Of a stretch of 42,971 nucleotides of DNA, positions 37,100-42,971 are shown piece by piece. The translations under genes were made by a program, and so were the position numbers. The notes below the pieces were generated by a model, which was given only the letters and a program-made list of their open reading frames with translations, was not told where the DNA came from and made no database searches. Every line of letters starts with the position of its first letter. The stretch's first letter is position 1. Source of the stretch: Acidimicrobiaceae bacterium (lineage in GTDB: Bacteria > Actinomycetota > Acidimicrobiia > Acidimicrobiales > RAAP-2); contig PKXH01000027.1 in assembly GCA_003133405.1 (NCBI GenBank), positions 91,274-134,244 of the forward strand, given 5' to 3'.

Positions 37100-38248
37100 A
37101 TGGACAAAGTACGCGTCGAAAAGACCGTGAGTGCTTCAAAACCATCTCGACCACCGGTCATGGCGGACTTTGGAGTTACGGCAACGTCGTGCAACCGGTT
37201 TCTCGTGGGCGACGGTCCTCGCAAGATCGAAGAACTGTTGTCGACCATTCCGGCCACCACGGTGATGGACTACTACGGAGCCGGGGGTGTGGTTACCGAT
37301 CTCGAGGCCGAAGTCGCATCGTTGCTCGGTAAGCCGTCGGCGTTGTTTCTGCCGACGGGCACGATGGCTCAACAGGCGACCCTTCGCGTTCACGCCGATC
37401 GGCGCTCGTCAAAGAGCATCGTGTTTCACCCTTGCTGTCACCTCGAGACCCATGAGGAACGTGGCTACCAACGCCTCCACGGGCTCTTCGGCGTTCCCGT
37501 CGGTTCGCGACACGAGCCGCTGACGTTGGCGAACCTGGAAAACGTCAGGGAGCCGGTGGCCGCACTCGTGCTCGAGTTGCCCCAACGTGACCTGGGAGGG
37601 ACGTTGCCGACGTGGAAGGAACTGAGCGCGCAGGTGAGTTGGGCTCGAGAGCGCGGGGCCGCGGTTCACCTCGACGGCGCGCGGCTCTGGGAGGCGGCGC
37701 CCTACTACGCCAAGTCCCAACAGAAGTCCCTCGCTGACATCGCTGCTCTCTTTGATTCGGTCTACGTCTCGTTCTATAAGGGTCTCGGCGCGATCGCGGG
37801 GTGCTGTGTCGCGGGCGAAACGGACGTGATCGACGAGCTGTCGGTGTGGCGAACTCGCCACGGAGGCCGGACCTTCATGATGTGGCCCTACGCCGCGTCG
37901 GCCCTCACCGTTTTGCGAGAGCGTCCGGCCCTGATGGCCACGTATTACCGCCGGGCGCAAGCCATTGCTCGCGAGCTCCGTAAGATCGATGGCGTCGACG
38001 TGCTGCCCGAGCGCGTGCAAAGTCCGATGATGCATCTGCGACTCTCGGGCAGCGTGAAGCAGATCCGTCAACGGGTTCGCGATATCGCTAAGAAACAAAA
38101 GATCATGACCTTTTCGCGTCCGTATACCAGCGAGGGTCCTAATCTTCAACGATTCGAGTTTCAAGTCGGTCGCGCCACCATGGACTTCACCCCGCGCGAG
38201 GTCGCTCGTCTGGTCGCACAACTCGTGGGCGCCGACTCGATTCGTTGA
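37100..38248 (+). CDS. low-specificity threonine aldolase / beta-eliminating lyase family
   Basis: PLP-fold LDGARLWEAAPYYAKS and DSVYVSFYKGLGAIAGCCVAG (Lys motif); start chosen at MDKVRVEKT. Confidence 0.85.
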   Translation: MDKVRVEKTVSASKPSRPPVMADFGVTATSCNRFLVGDGPRKIEELLSTIPATTVMDYYGAGGVVTDLEAEVASLLGKPSALFLPTGTMAQQATLRVHADRRSSKSIVFHPCCHLETHEERGYQRLHGLFGVPVGSRHEPLTLANLENVREPVAALVLELPQRDLGGTLPTWKELSAQVSWARERGAAVHLDGARLWEAAPYYAKSQQKSLADIAALFDSVYVSFYKGLGAIAGCCVAGETDVIDELSVWRTRHGGRTFMMWPYAASALTVLRERPALMATYYRRAQAIARELRKIDGVDVLPERVQSPMMHLRLSGSVKQIRQRVRDIAKKQKIMTFSRPYTSEGPNLQRFEFQVGRATMDFTPREVARLVAQLVGADSIR

Positions 38249-38289
38249 CCGAATGGTCACCGGGGTCACTGCGAATTGGTACTATCGAC

Positions 38290-38406
38290 ACGGAGCGATG
38301 AGGCCCGCCCCTAAAAGCGCCGCGCAACTTACGGCTAATGGCATCTACCAGCAGGATTCGTCAGCTGGTAGGGCCGGTGCTCCGTACCCCTGCCAAGTCA
38401 GGAGGT
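38290..38406 (+). ncRNA. fluoride riboswitch (crcB motif) with expression platform
   Basis: GGAGCGATGAGGCCCGCCCCTAAAAGCGCCG...CGGCTAATGGCATCTACC matches the fluoride aptamer core; followed by hairpin CTACCAGC-N11-GCTGGTAG and the antiporter SD. A -10-like TACTAT (38280-38285) precedes it. Confidence 0.87.
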
Positions 38407-38410
38407 ATCG

Positions 38411-39619
38411 ATGAACGTGTACTACGTATTGGCAATCTGGATTGGCATGGCGCTGCTGGCGTCGTTCATCAGCATTCGAGTGGGCATCTCGGTCGCCTTG
38501 ATCGAGATACTGGTCGGCGCGGTGTTGGGCAACATTCCCGGCATCAAAGAACACGTGCAACAGACGGACTACACCACGCTGCTCGCAGGCGTGGGTTCGA
38601 TTCTGTTGACCTTTCTCGCGGGCGCCGAGATCGATCCGGTCTCACTGCGCCGGCATTGGAAGGCCAGCCTCTCCATCGGCGCCGCGTCTTTCGTGCTGCC
38701 GTTGATCGGGGCTTTTTGTTACACGCGATATTTCCTGGACTGGAATCTGCACGCGGCCGAGATTGCCGGCATCGCGCTCAGCACGACGTCGGTGGCGGTG
38801 GTCTATGCGGTGATGGTCGAGACTGGACTCAATCGTCACGACATCGGCAAGTTGATCTTGGCCGCGTGCTTCGTGACCGACCTGGGCACGGTCCTCGCGC
38901 TCGGGGGGCTCTTCGCCACCTACGGGTGGTTGTTGCTGGTGTTCGTCGTCGTCACCGCGGTCACCTTGTACTTCTTTCCACGAATCTTGCGCTGGACCGT
39001 CGCGAATCTCGGTCACCGAGTGAGTGAGCCCGAGATCAAGTTGATCTTCGTTGTGTTGCTCGCTCTGGGGGGACTGGCGACGGCCGCGGGCAGCGAGGCG
39101 GTGCTGCCGGCCTACGTGGCGGGACTCGTGGTCGCGGGCGTCTTTATGAACGACCGCGTGATCTTGGAACGGATTCGTACCATCGCCTTCGCCCTCTTGA
39201 CGCCGTTTTTCTTCCTGCGCGCGGGCACGCTCATCTCGGCCCCCGCGCTGGTCACCGGGGCCAGTGTGATCGGGGCGCTCTTTGCGGTGAAGATGGTAAC
39301 CAAATTCCTCGGTGTGTGGCCGACGTCCACTTACTTTCGTCTCCCCAAGCGAGAGCGGGCCTACACGACCTTGCTCATGGCGACGGGCCTGACGTTCGGC
39401 TCGATCGCCGCCCTGTTCGGCCTCACGCACAAGTTGATTAGCGAGGCACAGTACACAGAGTTGGTGACCGTGGTCATTCTTTCGGCGTTCGTGCCCACCC
39501 TGGTGGCCCAGCAGTTCTTTCGCCCGACGACAGAGATGTCGGAGGAGAAGGAGGAGGCGCTCGGGGAAGAAGACCTCTCGATCCTCCGTCCCCGGCGCAC
39601 CCATCCCGAGACCGGGTAA
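38411..39619 (+). CDS. CPA2-family cation/proton antiporter
   Basis: GVGSILLTFLAGAEIDP, GIALSTTSVAVVYAVMVETGL, FVTDLGTVLALG; SD AGGAGGT at 38400-38406. Confidence 0.9.
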   Translation: MNVYYVLAIWIGMALLASFISIRVGISVALIEILVGAVLGNIPGIKEHVQQTDYTTLLAGVGSILLTFLAGAEIDPVSLRRHWKASLSIGAASFVLPLIGAFCYTRYFLDWNLHAAEIAGIALSTTSVAVVYAVMVETGLNRHDIGKLILAACFVTDLGTVLALGGLFATYGWLLLVFVVVTAVTLYFFPRILRWTVANLGHRVSEPEIKLIFVVLLALGGLATAAGSEAVLPAYVAGLVVAGVFMNDRVILERIRTIAFALLTPFFFLRAGTLISAPALVTGASVIGALFAVKMVTKFLGVWPTSTYFRLPKRERAYTTLLMATGLTFGSIAALFGLTHKLISEAQYTELVTVVILSAFVPTLVAQQFFRPTTEMSEEKEEALGEEDLSILRPRRTHPETG

Positions 39620-40336: not shown

Positions 40337-40987
40337 CTAGTGGGCGTTGGGGAGTAATTCACCGAGGAGGCCCGCGACATGCTGCTCGATGTCGTCGCGG
40401 ATGACGCGAACGGCCGTGAGGTCCTTGCCTGCGGGGTCGTCCAGCTCCCAATCGAGATAGCGCTTGCCTGGGTAAATCGGACACACGTCGCCACAGCCCA
40501 TGGCGATCACGACGTCGACAGCCTGAACGATTTCGTCGGTCCACGGCTTCGGGAACTCCTCGCGTATATCAACGCCAACTTCGGCCATCGCGCTAACGAC
40601 GACGGGATTGAGTTCGGCGCCGGGTTCAGAGCCGCCCGTGTAGACGTTGATCCGATCGCCCGCGAGATGTCGCAGCCAACCGGCGGCCATTTGCGACCGT
40701 CCGGCGTTGTGGACGCACAGAAAGAGCACGCCCGGCTTGCCCGGCGCAGAGTCTTCGAGTTGCGCCATCGCTTTGAGGCGCTCGCGGGCGAAGCGCTCGG
40801 CCTGAACGCCGATGTAGGTTTTCACCTTCGCGCTCGCCGAGAGTCGCTCAAAGGAGTCGACGAGAAAATGCTCGATGGTCTCGTCGTCGAAGGTTCCTTT
40901 GAATTCGGTCTGTAGCACCCCCAGTGCCCGACCGAGGAGACGTTGGTCCTCGGGCGCGAGGTCCTCGACTCGGTGTTCTTTAGGCAT
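40337..40987 (-). CDS. arsC: arsenate reductase with N-terminal helical domain (mycothiol-transferase-like)
   Basis: N-terminal ~85 aa helical region then VLFLCVHNAGRSQMAAGWLRHLAG...VIAMGCGDVCPIYPGKRYLDWELDDPAG. Start MPKEHRV. Confidence 0.9.
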   Translation of the reverse strand: MPKEHRVEDLAPEDQRLLGRALGVLQTEFKGTFDDETIEHFLVDSFERLSASAKVKTYIGVQAERFARERLKAMAQLEDSAPGKPGVLFLCVHNAGRSQMAAGWLRHLAGDRINVYTGGSEPGAELNPVVVSAMAEVGVDIREEFPKPWTDEIVQAVDVVIAMGCGDVCPIYPGKRYLDWELDDPAGKDLTAVRVIRDDIEQHVAGLLGELLPNAH

Positions 40988-41414
40988 ACTGACCCCTTTC
41001 TGTCTTGGGATTGGGTGAAAGTAATTCGTTGATAAGGGCCCGAACACGCCGCTCGATGTCGTCGCGAATGTGTCGAACCACTTCGATTGGTTGGTCGGCC
41101 GGGTCGGGTAGTTCCCAGTCGAGGTAGCGCTTACCGGGATAGACGGGACAGGCATCGCCGCAGCCCATCGTCACCACCACGTTGGCGCGCTGGCCCATCT
41201 CGTTAGTCAACTTCTGAGGTGATTCGCCTGAAATATCAATGCCCTTCTCCCGCATTGCGGTGACGACGGCGGGGTTCAGGCTCTCCCCGGGCGCAGTGCC
41301 AGCCGAATGTACAACGACACGGTCTTCGCCAACTTCTCTGGCGAAGGCGGCGGCCATTTGCGACCGCCCGGCGTTATGCACGCAAAGGAAAAGGATCTCC
41401 GGACGAATCTTCAC
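40980..41414 (-). CDS. arsC: arsenate reductase, single-domain LMW-PTP fold
   Basis: ILFLCVHNAGRSQMAAAFAREVG...VVTMGCGDACPVYPGKRYLDWELPDPAD; GTG start overlaps the acr3 stop (GTGA). Confidence 0.92.
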   Translation of the reverse strand: MKIRPEILFLCVHNAGRSQMAAAFAREVGEDRVVVHSAGTAPGESLNPAVVTAMREKGIDISGESPQKLTNEMGQRANVVVTMGCGDACPVYPGKRYLDWELPDPADQPIEVVRHIRDDIERRVRALINELLSPNPKTERGQYA

Positions 41415-42553
41415 CGAGTTCCGTCGACGGCGGGCACTGACCAGTACAAGTGTCGCTTCGCCCATAGCGACACGTAGACCAGGCCGACGAGGACCGGTAC
41501 CTCGATGAGCGGACCGACCACCCCGGCCAGGGCCTCGCCGCTCGTGACCCCAAAGACGCCAATGGCGACCGCGATGGCCAACTCGAAATTGTTGCCCGCC
41601 GCGGTGAATGCCAGCGTCGCGGTTCGATCGTAGGGAAGCCCCAGCGCTCGGCCCAGGGCGAATGACCCGAACCACATGATGGCGAAATAGCACAGCAGTG
41701 GCAAAGCAATGCGCGCCACGTCGCCGGGCCGAGAGGTAATGGTGTGCCCTTGCAGGGCGAAGAGGATCACGATGGTATAGAGCAATCCGTAGAGGGCGAA
41801 GGGACCGAGGCGAGGTAGGAGTTTCGTTTCGTACCACTCTCGACCTCGCCGGCGTTCACCCAGGGTGCGAGTCAAGTAGCCCGCGACAAGCGGCACGCCG
41901 AGGAAGATCGCAACGGTTTCAGCGATTCGTCCGATCGACAGTTGAAGGCCCTCGGTGCTAAGTCCGAGCCATCCGGGCAGCAGCTTTAGATAGAAATAGC
42001 CCAGGAAGGCGAAGGCGACGATCTGGAACAGTGAGTTGAGCGCCACCAGCACGGCGCCCGCCTCTCGGTTGCCCCCCGATAGATCGTTCCAGATCAGCAC
42101 CATCGCGATACAACGGGCCACGCCGACGATGATCAGACCAGTTCGGTACGTTGGCAGGTCGGGCAGCAGCAACCAGGCCAGCGAGAACATCACCGCCGGG
42201 CCGACCAGCCAGTTCAGTACGAGCGACGCCACCAGCAACCGTCGGTCGCGCGTTACCGTGCCCAACCGGTCGTAGCGGACCTTGGCGAGCACTGGATACA
42301 TCATCACCAGAAGCCCCAGAAAGATGGGCAACGAAGTACCCGACGTCACCTGCACGGCGTTGAGGTGGCTGTTGAGGCTCGGCACCGCCCGGCCGAGCCC
42401 GATGCCTACGGCCATCGCCAGGATGATCCAAAGGGGTAGGAATCGGTTGAGGAACGAGAGTTGCGCAATGACCGGCGCAGGCGATTCGCTGTGCGACGAG
42501 CGAATCGAGACCATGTCGCTCATCGTCGTTTCGAGTGTTCGATGAATCGACAA
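41411..42553 (-). CDS. acr3: ACR3-family arsenite efflux transporter
   Basis: LPIFLGLLVMMYPVLAKVRYDRL, GVARCIAMVLIWNDLSGGNREAGAVLVALNSLFQI, FTAAGNNFELAIAVAIGVFG. Confidence 0.95.
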   Translation of the reverse strand: MSIHRTLETTMSDMVSIRSSHSESPAPVIAQLSFLNRFLPLWIILAMAVGIGLGRAVPSLNSHLNAVQVTSGTSLPIFLGLLVMMYPVLAKVRYDRLGTVTRDRRLLVASLVLNWLVGPAVMFSLAWLLLPDLPTYRTGLIIVGVARCIAMVLIWNDLSGGNREAGAVLVALNSLFQIVAFAFLGYFYLKLLPGWLGLSTEGLQLSIGRIAETVAIFLGVPLVAGYLTRTLGERRRGREWYETKLLPRLGPFALYGLLYTIVILFALQGHTITSRPGDVARIALPLLCYFAIMWFGSFALGRALGLPYDRTATLAFTAAGNNFELAIAVAIGVFGVTSGEALAGVVGPLIEVPVLVGLVYVSLWAKRHLYWSVPAVDGTR

Positions 42554-42554
42554 C

Positions 42555-42971
42555 TCAGCAGCACGGAGTTTTCTCAGACGTCGTCAATGATCCTGAGGTG
42601 CAGCAATTGTCGCCGGCCAGTGAGGAAGCGTCGCTTGCGTCGGCGAGCACCGTATAGACCTCCCAACGAGAGGCGTCGGGGCCGTCGACCCAGACCTTGT
42701 CCTGCACTGCGTAGCAGCACGTTGTCTGCTTCTCGACGTCGGTGGCGAAGCCTTGGTCGGCGAGGTACTTGGTGGCCGTGACGACTTCTTCAGTGGAAGA
42801 GACCTCGACGCCGAGGTGGTTGATCGTGCCGGGAGCCTCGGTGTTCTCGAAGAGTACGAGCTTGAGCGGCGGCTCGGCGATCGCGAAGTTGGCGTAACCC
42901 GGGCGGAGCTTCGCCGGTTCGGTCTGGAAGAACTTGGAGTAAAAGGCAACGGCTTCGTCGAGATTCGACAC
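42555..42971 (-). CDS. arsI: ArsI/CadI family glyoxalase-fold protein, 5' end truncated by window edge
   Basis: LDEAVAFYSKFFQTEPAKLRPGYANFAIAEPPLKLVLFE, NHLGVEV, KQTTCCYAVQDKVWVDGPDA. The conserved N-terminus lies outside the window. Confidence 0.85.
   Translation of the reverse strand: MSNLDEAVAFYSKFFQTEPAKLRPGYANFAIAEPPLKLVLFENTEAPGTINHLGVEVSSTEEVVTATKYLADQGFATDVEKQTTCCYAVQDKVWVDGPDASRWEVYTVLADASDASSLAGDNCCTSGSLTTSEKTPCC

Follow-up and report, generated by a model that had tools for sequence, protein, structure and literature searches.

A variant fluoride riboswitch leader upstream of a CPA2-type antiporter gene in an Acidimicrobiaceae bacterium and the fluoride-linked antiporter clade to which the gene belongs

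A gene for a CPA2-type cation/proton antiporter in the draft genome of an Acidimicrobiaceae bacterium is preceded by a leader that resembles the crcB-motif (RF01734) aptamer. This raises the questions of whether the leader is a fluoride riboswitch, how it would control the gene, and why a cation/proton antiporter should be placed under the control of fluoride. The window analysed here is the whole stretch of 42,971 nucleotides that contains the locus, and its relevant features are listed in Table 1. We consider it likely, for the explanation as a whole, that the leader is a translational fluoride ON switch and that the antiporter, as a member of a clade devoted to fluoride response, would act electroneutrally to adjust the pH or ion state of the cell.

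Table 1. Features of the riboswitch leader and the antiporter gene (positions in the window).
Feature	Position	Strand	Remarks
Likely -10 element TACTAT	38280..38285	+	Inferred from the sequence and the leaders of relatives
Aptamer stem P1	38293-38297 with 38306-38310	+	A.C mismatch at the second pair
Pseudoknot	38300-38305 (GAGGCC) with 38340-38345 (GGCATC)	+	Third pair is G.A
Aptamer stem P2	38319-38322 with 38332-38335	+	Compensatory changes in relatives
Hairpin A, aptamer competitor	Tail 38345-38352 CTACCAGC with 38364-38371 GCTGGTAG	+	97% of cells paired
Hairpin B, proposed anti-sequestrator	38367-38373 GGTAGGG with 38388-38394 CCCTGCC	+	98.9% of cells paired
Hairpin C, Shine-Dalgarno sequestrator	38385-38392 TACCCCTG with 38399-38407 CAGGAGGTA	+	Covariation
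Shine-Dalgarno AGGAGG	38400..38405	+	From the sequence; the ATG at 38411 follows after 5 nt
CPA2-type cation/proton antiporter, 402 aa	38411..39619	+	T156-D157, K294, K298, GLTFG 326-330

A variant aptamer of the crcB class

The Infernal comparison with RF01734 that was proposed in a preliminary description of this DNA gives a match at 38284-38354 (+) with 27.0 bits and an E-value of 9e-6 (scan of 38200-38450, 251 nt). The alignment is full-length (model positions 1-64 of 64) and every model base pair is standard, though the score is below the curated gathering cut-off of 34 bits by which membership of RF01734 is decided, and the whole window, when scanned with Rfam at gathering thresholds, yields no match. 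In the 2.27 Mb draft genome of the bacterium itself, the aptamer has an E-value of 1.9e-5, and the runner-up RF01734 candidate has 13.3 bits (E 0.64). When 100 related genomes are searched with an IUPAC pattern of the aptamer core, a single match each is found in G000, G399, G406, G424 and G506, all of which bear the antiporter, and none in the other genomes; the reversed control of the pattern has zero matches in the same 100 genomes.

P1, P2 and the pseudoknot are all present with the conserved core, and P1 and the pseudoknot contain one mismatch each. The aptamer is located in the 5' leader of a fluoride-response gene, its 3' end lies 56 nt upstream of the antiporter start codon, and its tail is overlapped by an expression platform. 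At the level of sequence, the leader (38284-38410) is confirmed as a crcB-class (RF01734) fluoride riboswitch, and it is predicted to bind fluoride. The riboswitch had been placed at 38290-38350 in the preliminary description, which is correct except that the actual aptamer is slightly wider; the letters quoted there as a likeness to the crcB motif are present, whereas the deviations from the motif (the A.C mismatch of P1 and the G.A mismatch of the pseudoknot) had been understated. The aptamer is credible despite its low score: the decisive evidence is comparative, and it was gathered with the protein rather than the RNA as the starting point.

Thirteen distinct leaders were compared. P2 covaries, with two pairs changed on both sides and 100% of cells paired, and five of the six pseudoknot pairs are formed (invariant or compatible) in all the leaders. 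Nine leaders have G.A as the third pseudoknot pair, two have G.U and two have A-U. At the second pair of P1, 12 of the 13 leaders deviate from standard pairing, ten of them with A.C. Other fluoride switches tolerate, or even require, a weak pair in the pseudoknot for switching (PMC11077080), and in the present soil bacteria the internal G.A or G.U pair may have such a role. The layout of P1, P2 and the pseudoknot and the conserved GCGAUG and UNAUG...CUAC are shared with the RF01734 examples of Bacillus cereus and Thermotoga petrophila (Baker 2012; Ren 2012), but the present leader differs in its sub-cut-off score, in its conserved A.C and G.A mismatches and in a Shine-Dalgarno platform that replaces the terminator. 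This aptamer, newly described here, can be regarded as a somewhat variant, sub-threshold representative of RF01734.

The expression platform and a proposed translational switch

Counterparts of the likely -10 element in the leaders of relatives include TACCAT, TACGCT, TACACT and TATTCT; a scan of the leader finds no full consensus sigma-70 promoter. Three mutually exclusive helices, hairpins A, B and C, are located 3' of the aptamer. Their slid controls have far fewer paired cells (25-63%). In hairpin C, UACCCCUG and the Shine-Dalgarno strand are paired in 86% of cells, and the outer pair is variously UA, AU, CG or UG. The competition between the tail CUACCAG and the downstream CUGGUAG presumably resembles that at the B. 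cereus terminator. The window leader has no intrinsic terminator and no U-run; because of this lack of a U-run, the expression platform of this leader group looks translational, which is a new feature described here. U-run terminator-like sequences are recognized by eye 3' of the aptamer in the homologous loci L052, L053, L056, L130, L134 and L138.

In folding of the free leaders, hairpin A is the predicted default in 12 of the 13, and the Shine-Dalgarno is mostly closed by hairpin C or in another manner, corresponding to an OFF state. Default sequestration of the Shine-Dalgarno is well supported. When the aptamer tail is held, equilibrium folding of the full leader does not produce a flip to hairpin B in the window leader or in any other leader except L044. 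When the tail is held via the linchpin and the Shine-Dalgarno is not yet made, hairpin B has a probability of 0.91 in the window leader, and a probability above 0.5 in ten of the 13 leaders. As hairpin B is thus obtained only before synthesis of the Shine-Dalgarno, switching is proposed to be co-transcriptional, or to differ in detail. RNAalifold gives an alternative register in which the same CCUGCC sequesters the Shine-Dalgarno; because this register also explains the conservation of CCUGCC, hairpin B is less secure than hairpins A and C, and the flip through hairpin B is moderately supported.

The leader is probably an ON switch that acts on translation of the antiporter when fluoride enters the cell. 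When fluoride is absent, the aptamer tail (CUACCAGC) would pair with GCUGGUAG to form hairpin A, which would leave CCCCUG free to cover the Shine-Dalgarno as hairpin C (OFF). When fluoride is present, the pseudoknot would retain the tail, enabling GGUAGGG to pair with CCCUGCC in hairpin B while the Shine-Dalgarno is still untranscribed. This hairpin would then free the Shine-Dalgarno, and ribosomes could start translation of the antiporter. Such a leader, a compact translational fluoride switch with a natural weakening of the pseudoknot, would be useful for testing how pseudoknot strength relates to switching.

A CPA2 clade wired to fluoride sensors

The antiporter belongs to Pfam PF00999 (E 2e-39) and matches NCBIfam TIGR00932 (6.7e-31), but below the cut-off of the TIGR00932 model itself. 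PF00999 is the sole domain found in the gene, with neither a PF00654 (CLC) nor a PF02537 (Fluc) domain. The AlphaFold model (mean pLDDT 85) has the two broken crossing helices of the NhaA fold, with breaks at 124-127 and 324-327. NapA is the top match of a fold search, in which KefC is also high; a profile search of the PDB finds both, and a single-sequence search of the PDB finds no match. The fold is common to NapA (4bwz, 5bz2; TMq 0.76) and KefC (8bxg; about 0.7), as are the positions of D157 and K298, although identity is only about 20%. Unlike NapA, which has D156, members of the clade described below have T or N at this position; in addition, GLTFG replaces the RGE-type TM11 motif of NapA and KefC, and an extra K294 is present. 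The Kef regulatory domain of KefC is absent from the antiporter.

Of 15 relatives of the antiporter taken from GTDB contigs, one is a fragment (L058) and in one the aptamer is masked by Ns (L057). RF01734 is found at the same place in every one of these homologues with a readable upstream region, i.e., ten loci plus L054, L055 and L056; they span several phyla, and some scores exceed the cut-off. The aptamer of a Deltaproteobacteria homologue (60% identity) has 38.7 bits; within the same family as the bacterium, scores reach 34.9 bits, in the leader of a close homologue (L083). A homologue of Alicyclobacillaceae (55% identity) also carries the aptamer, and in an Acidobacteria MAG (L053; 58% identity) tandem aptamers of 60.0 and 51.1 bits (2808-2867 and 2892-2954) precede the antiporter. 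In a phylum-wide sample, RF01734 is upstream of 13 of 16 further homologues (31-57% identity) whereas none of 16 control PF00999 antiporters, taken from a partly shared set of genomes, has it (Fisher p 3e-6); a fourteenth homologue (L136) has, by eye, an aptamer with a long P2.

In a gene tree whose members were chosen for their resemblance to the window protein, except that L113 and L117 entered via their riboswitches, the homologues form a fully supported clade of 25 rows on a long branch apart from other PF00999 proteins. Twenty-three rows are linked to the riboswitch, and L144 and L145 are not. The ion-site signature of the clade is [TN]D, K-x3-K and GLTFG. The added lysine, K294, is invariant in the clade and, being four residues (one turn) from K298, should face the same side; K294 and GLTFG are absent from all 16 control paralogues and from the unlinked outgroup L145. 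The window neighbours of the gene, for an aldolase and a PEBP, are not adjacent to the homologues, so that the downstream PEBP gene was rejected as an operon partner, and the pairing of riboswitch and antiporter persists. As judged from these comparisons, the linked antiporters make up one CPA2 clade whose genes are nearly always coupled to fluoride sensors and whose ion site is unusual.

A relative of 48% identity that bears this signature is widespread in plasmids of Enterobacteriaceae, of which one, from Enterobacter cloacae, was inspected closely. Its antiporter gene lies under an aptamer of 59.4 bits, is followed by UspA and MutS genes, and shares one island with crcB, gpmA, eno and uspA. 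In E. cloacae FRM, a ppaC-uspA-eno-gpmA-crcB set confers fluoride resistance experimentally (PMC5533749); the island shares crcB, gpmA, eno and uspA with this operon, so a fluoride role is likely. The operon description, in its accessible text, names no antiporter and gives no identity for orf5249 (PMC5533749), and the window gene differs from both in standing alone. Thirty-eight plasmid records with a fluoride-linked antiporter were collected (e.g., NZ_CP103612.1 40277-59401, L185), mostly of conjugative or mobilizable plasmids. Copper resistance genes adjoin the antiporter in the single plasmid island inspected.

Near-universal linkage and the plasmid island support dedication of the clade to the fluoride response, in agreement with the preliminary description, which had assigned the gene downstream of the riboswitch to a CPA2-type antiporter, as the PF00999 and TIGR00932 matches bear out, and had proposed that it belongs to a fluoride response. 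The acid-exposed setting suggested there is plausible, close relatives being Acidimicrobiaceae MAGs from palsa and bog. The gene context was likewise rightly described as established: riboswitch-linked Na+/H+ or K+ transport genes have been listed since 2010-2012 (Weinberg 2010, PMC2864571; PMC11139923), and antiporter genes are the second most common riboswitch-linked class after exporters (PMC11139923; Baker 2012 cited there). The pairing seen here is the same, but here one CPA2 clade is delimited and set apart from the remaining PF00999 proteins in the genomes sampled. The definition of this fluoride-linked clade with its own ion-site signature is new. A literature search found no paper on what riboswitch-linked antiporters do and no experiment on this clade; now that the clade is defined across several phyla and on conjugative plasmids, what was a loose association becomes a protein family for which substrate and direction are measurable.

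Transport direction, substrate and alternative readings

CPA2 proteins have D at motif position 7 and K or R at position 8, and lack the combination of E at 5 with R at 8 (PMC6181914). By alignment to NapA, the antiporter has D157 and K298 at these positions and no E at the position-5 site. Electrogenic CPA2 proteins of the NhaA and NapA type have an acidic residue at position 6 in addition to K at 8 (Masrati 2018, PMC6181914); the antiporter has T156, one subclade has N, and E occurs only in L143. As T/N-D stands in place of D-D, one-to-one electroneutral cation/H+ exchange is predicted by the Masrati model (PMC6181914).

Most probably, the antiporter would adjust the cytoplasmic pH or ion state that governs HF trapping. 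With acid outside, H+ would enter by electroneutral exchange for outgoing K+ or Na+, since the gradients of both H+ and K+ would drive it in this direction; the H+ inflow would reduce the pH gradient and thereby fluoride accumulation. With assumed gradients, the weak-acid equation (pKa 3.17, external pH 4) gives an equilibrium accumulation of about 276-fold at an internal pH of 6.5 and 28-fold at 5.5.

Under the same riboswitch, the antiporter might instead extrude H+ (or Na+), restoring pH and the proton-motive force after HF entry. This is the usual reading of riboswitch-linked antiporters, in terms of pH homeostasis (review PMC11139923), and agrees with the PF00999 assignment and the NapA-like fold. 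However, the clade lacks the second carboxylate expected for electrogenic exchange (T/N at 156; PMC6181914), and electroneutral exchange with acid outside and high K+ inside runs H+ inward, so that we hold extrusion to be a possible but tentative reading.

It is unlikely that the antiporter itself moves fluoride as an F-/H+ exchanger of the CPA fold that has converged with CLC-F, and similarly doubtful that the proteins of the linked clade, rather than being ordinary Na+/K+-H+ antiporters, represent a third type of specialized fluoride transporter, with an ion site rebuilt for fluoride- or HF-coupled exchange. Such transport is suggested by the near-obligate linkage to fluoride sensing, by loss of the R-G-E type motif of TM11 and gain of the invariant K294, and by the bacterium's own gene content: PF02537 Fluc is not detected in the draft genome (90.5% complete), and its sole CLC lacks the fluoride-type signature GNNLI/GMGLI (signature: PMC11139923). 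Against this, all solved relatives are cation exchangers, D157 is retained, and Fluc pairs are present in most close relatives with the gene, because of which the Fluc absence may reflect incompleteness of the draft.

A degenerated, fluoride-unresponsive aptamer, either a relic or a leader that responds to another cue (e.g., pH via the A.C pair), would fit the score of only 27 bits, the A.C pair in 10 of 13 leaders and the G.A pair in 9 of 13; yet the three regulatory hairpins and the aptamer core are kept across species while the flanks diverge, and a weakened pseudoknot pair is tolerated or needed in the fluoride switches studied (PMC11077080), which makes this reading quite improbable. A chance match to the motif, to which the sub-threshold score in the whole-window scan might point, is refuted by the uniqueness of the aptamer in its genome, the linkage in homologues, the 0/16 controls and the core-pattern search, and deserves almost no credence. 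The reading of a fluoride switch that controls an electroneutral antiporter is preferred.

The antiporter is the only PF00999 member of its genome. Several side observations concern other genes. RF01734 occurs repeatedly upstream of bacterial dynamin-like GTPases, L110, L112, L124 and L129 being among the loci; Dynamin_N is detected by Pfam in L110, L112, L056 (872-2623, -), L138 (3013-4146, +), L134 (3367-4110, +) and L141 (4-1081, -), and a P-loop motif in L124 and L129. The dynamin-like gene is divergent from the fluoride CPA2 antiporter in three loci and just downstream of it in one; a literature search found no paper mentioning both fluoride riboswitches and dynamin-like GTPases. At the class level, RF01734 also precedes genes for membrane subunits of the NADH dehydrogenase/formate hydrogenlyase type (L093, with NADHdh confirmed by Pfam; L090, L104, L105 and L126, by eye) and MutS-family genes (L116, L123), in agreement with published associations. 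In the window, 40340-42971 (-) encodes an SBF-family transporter (possibly Acr3-type), two ArsC-like low-molecular-weight phosphatase proteins and a glyoxalase-family protein, and this cluster looks like an arsenic resistance island beside the fluoride gene.
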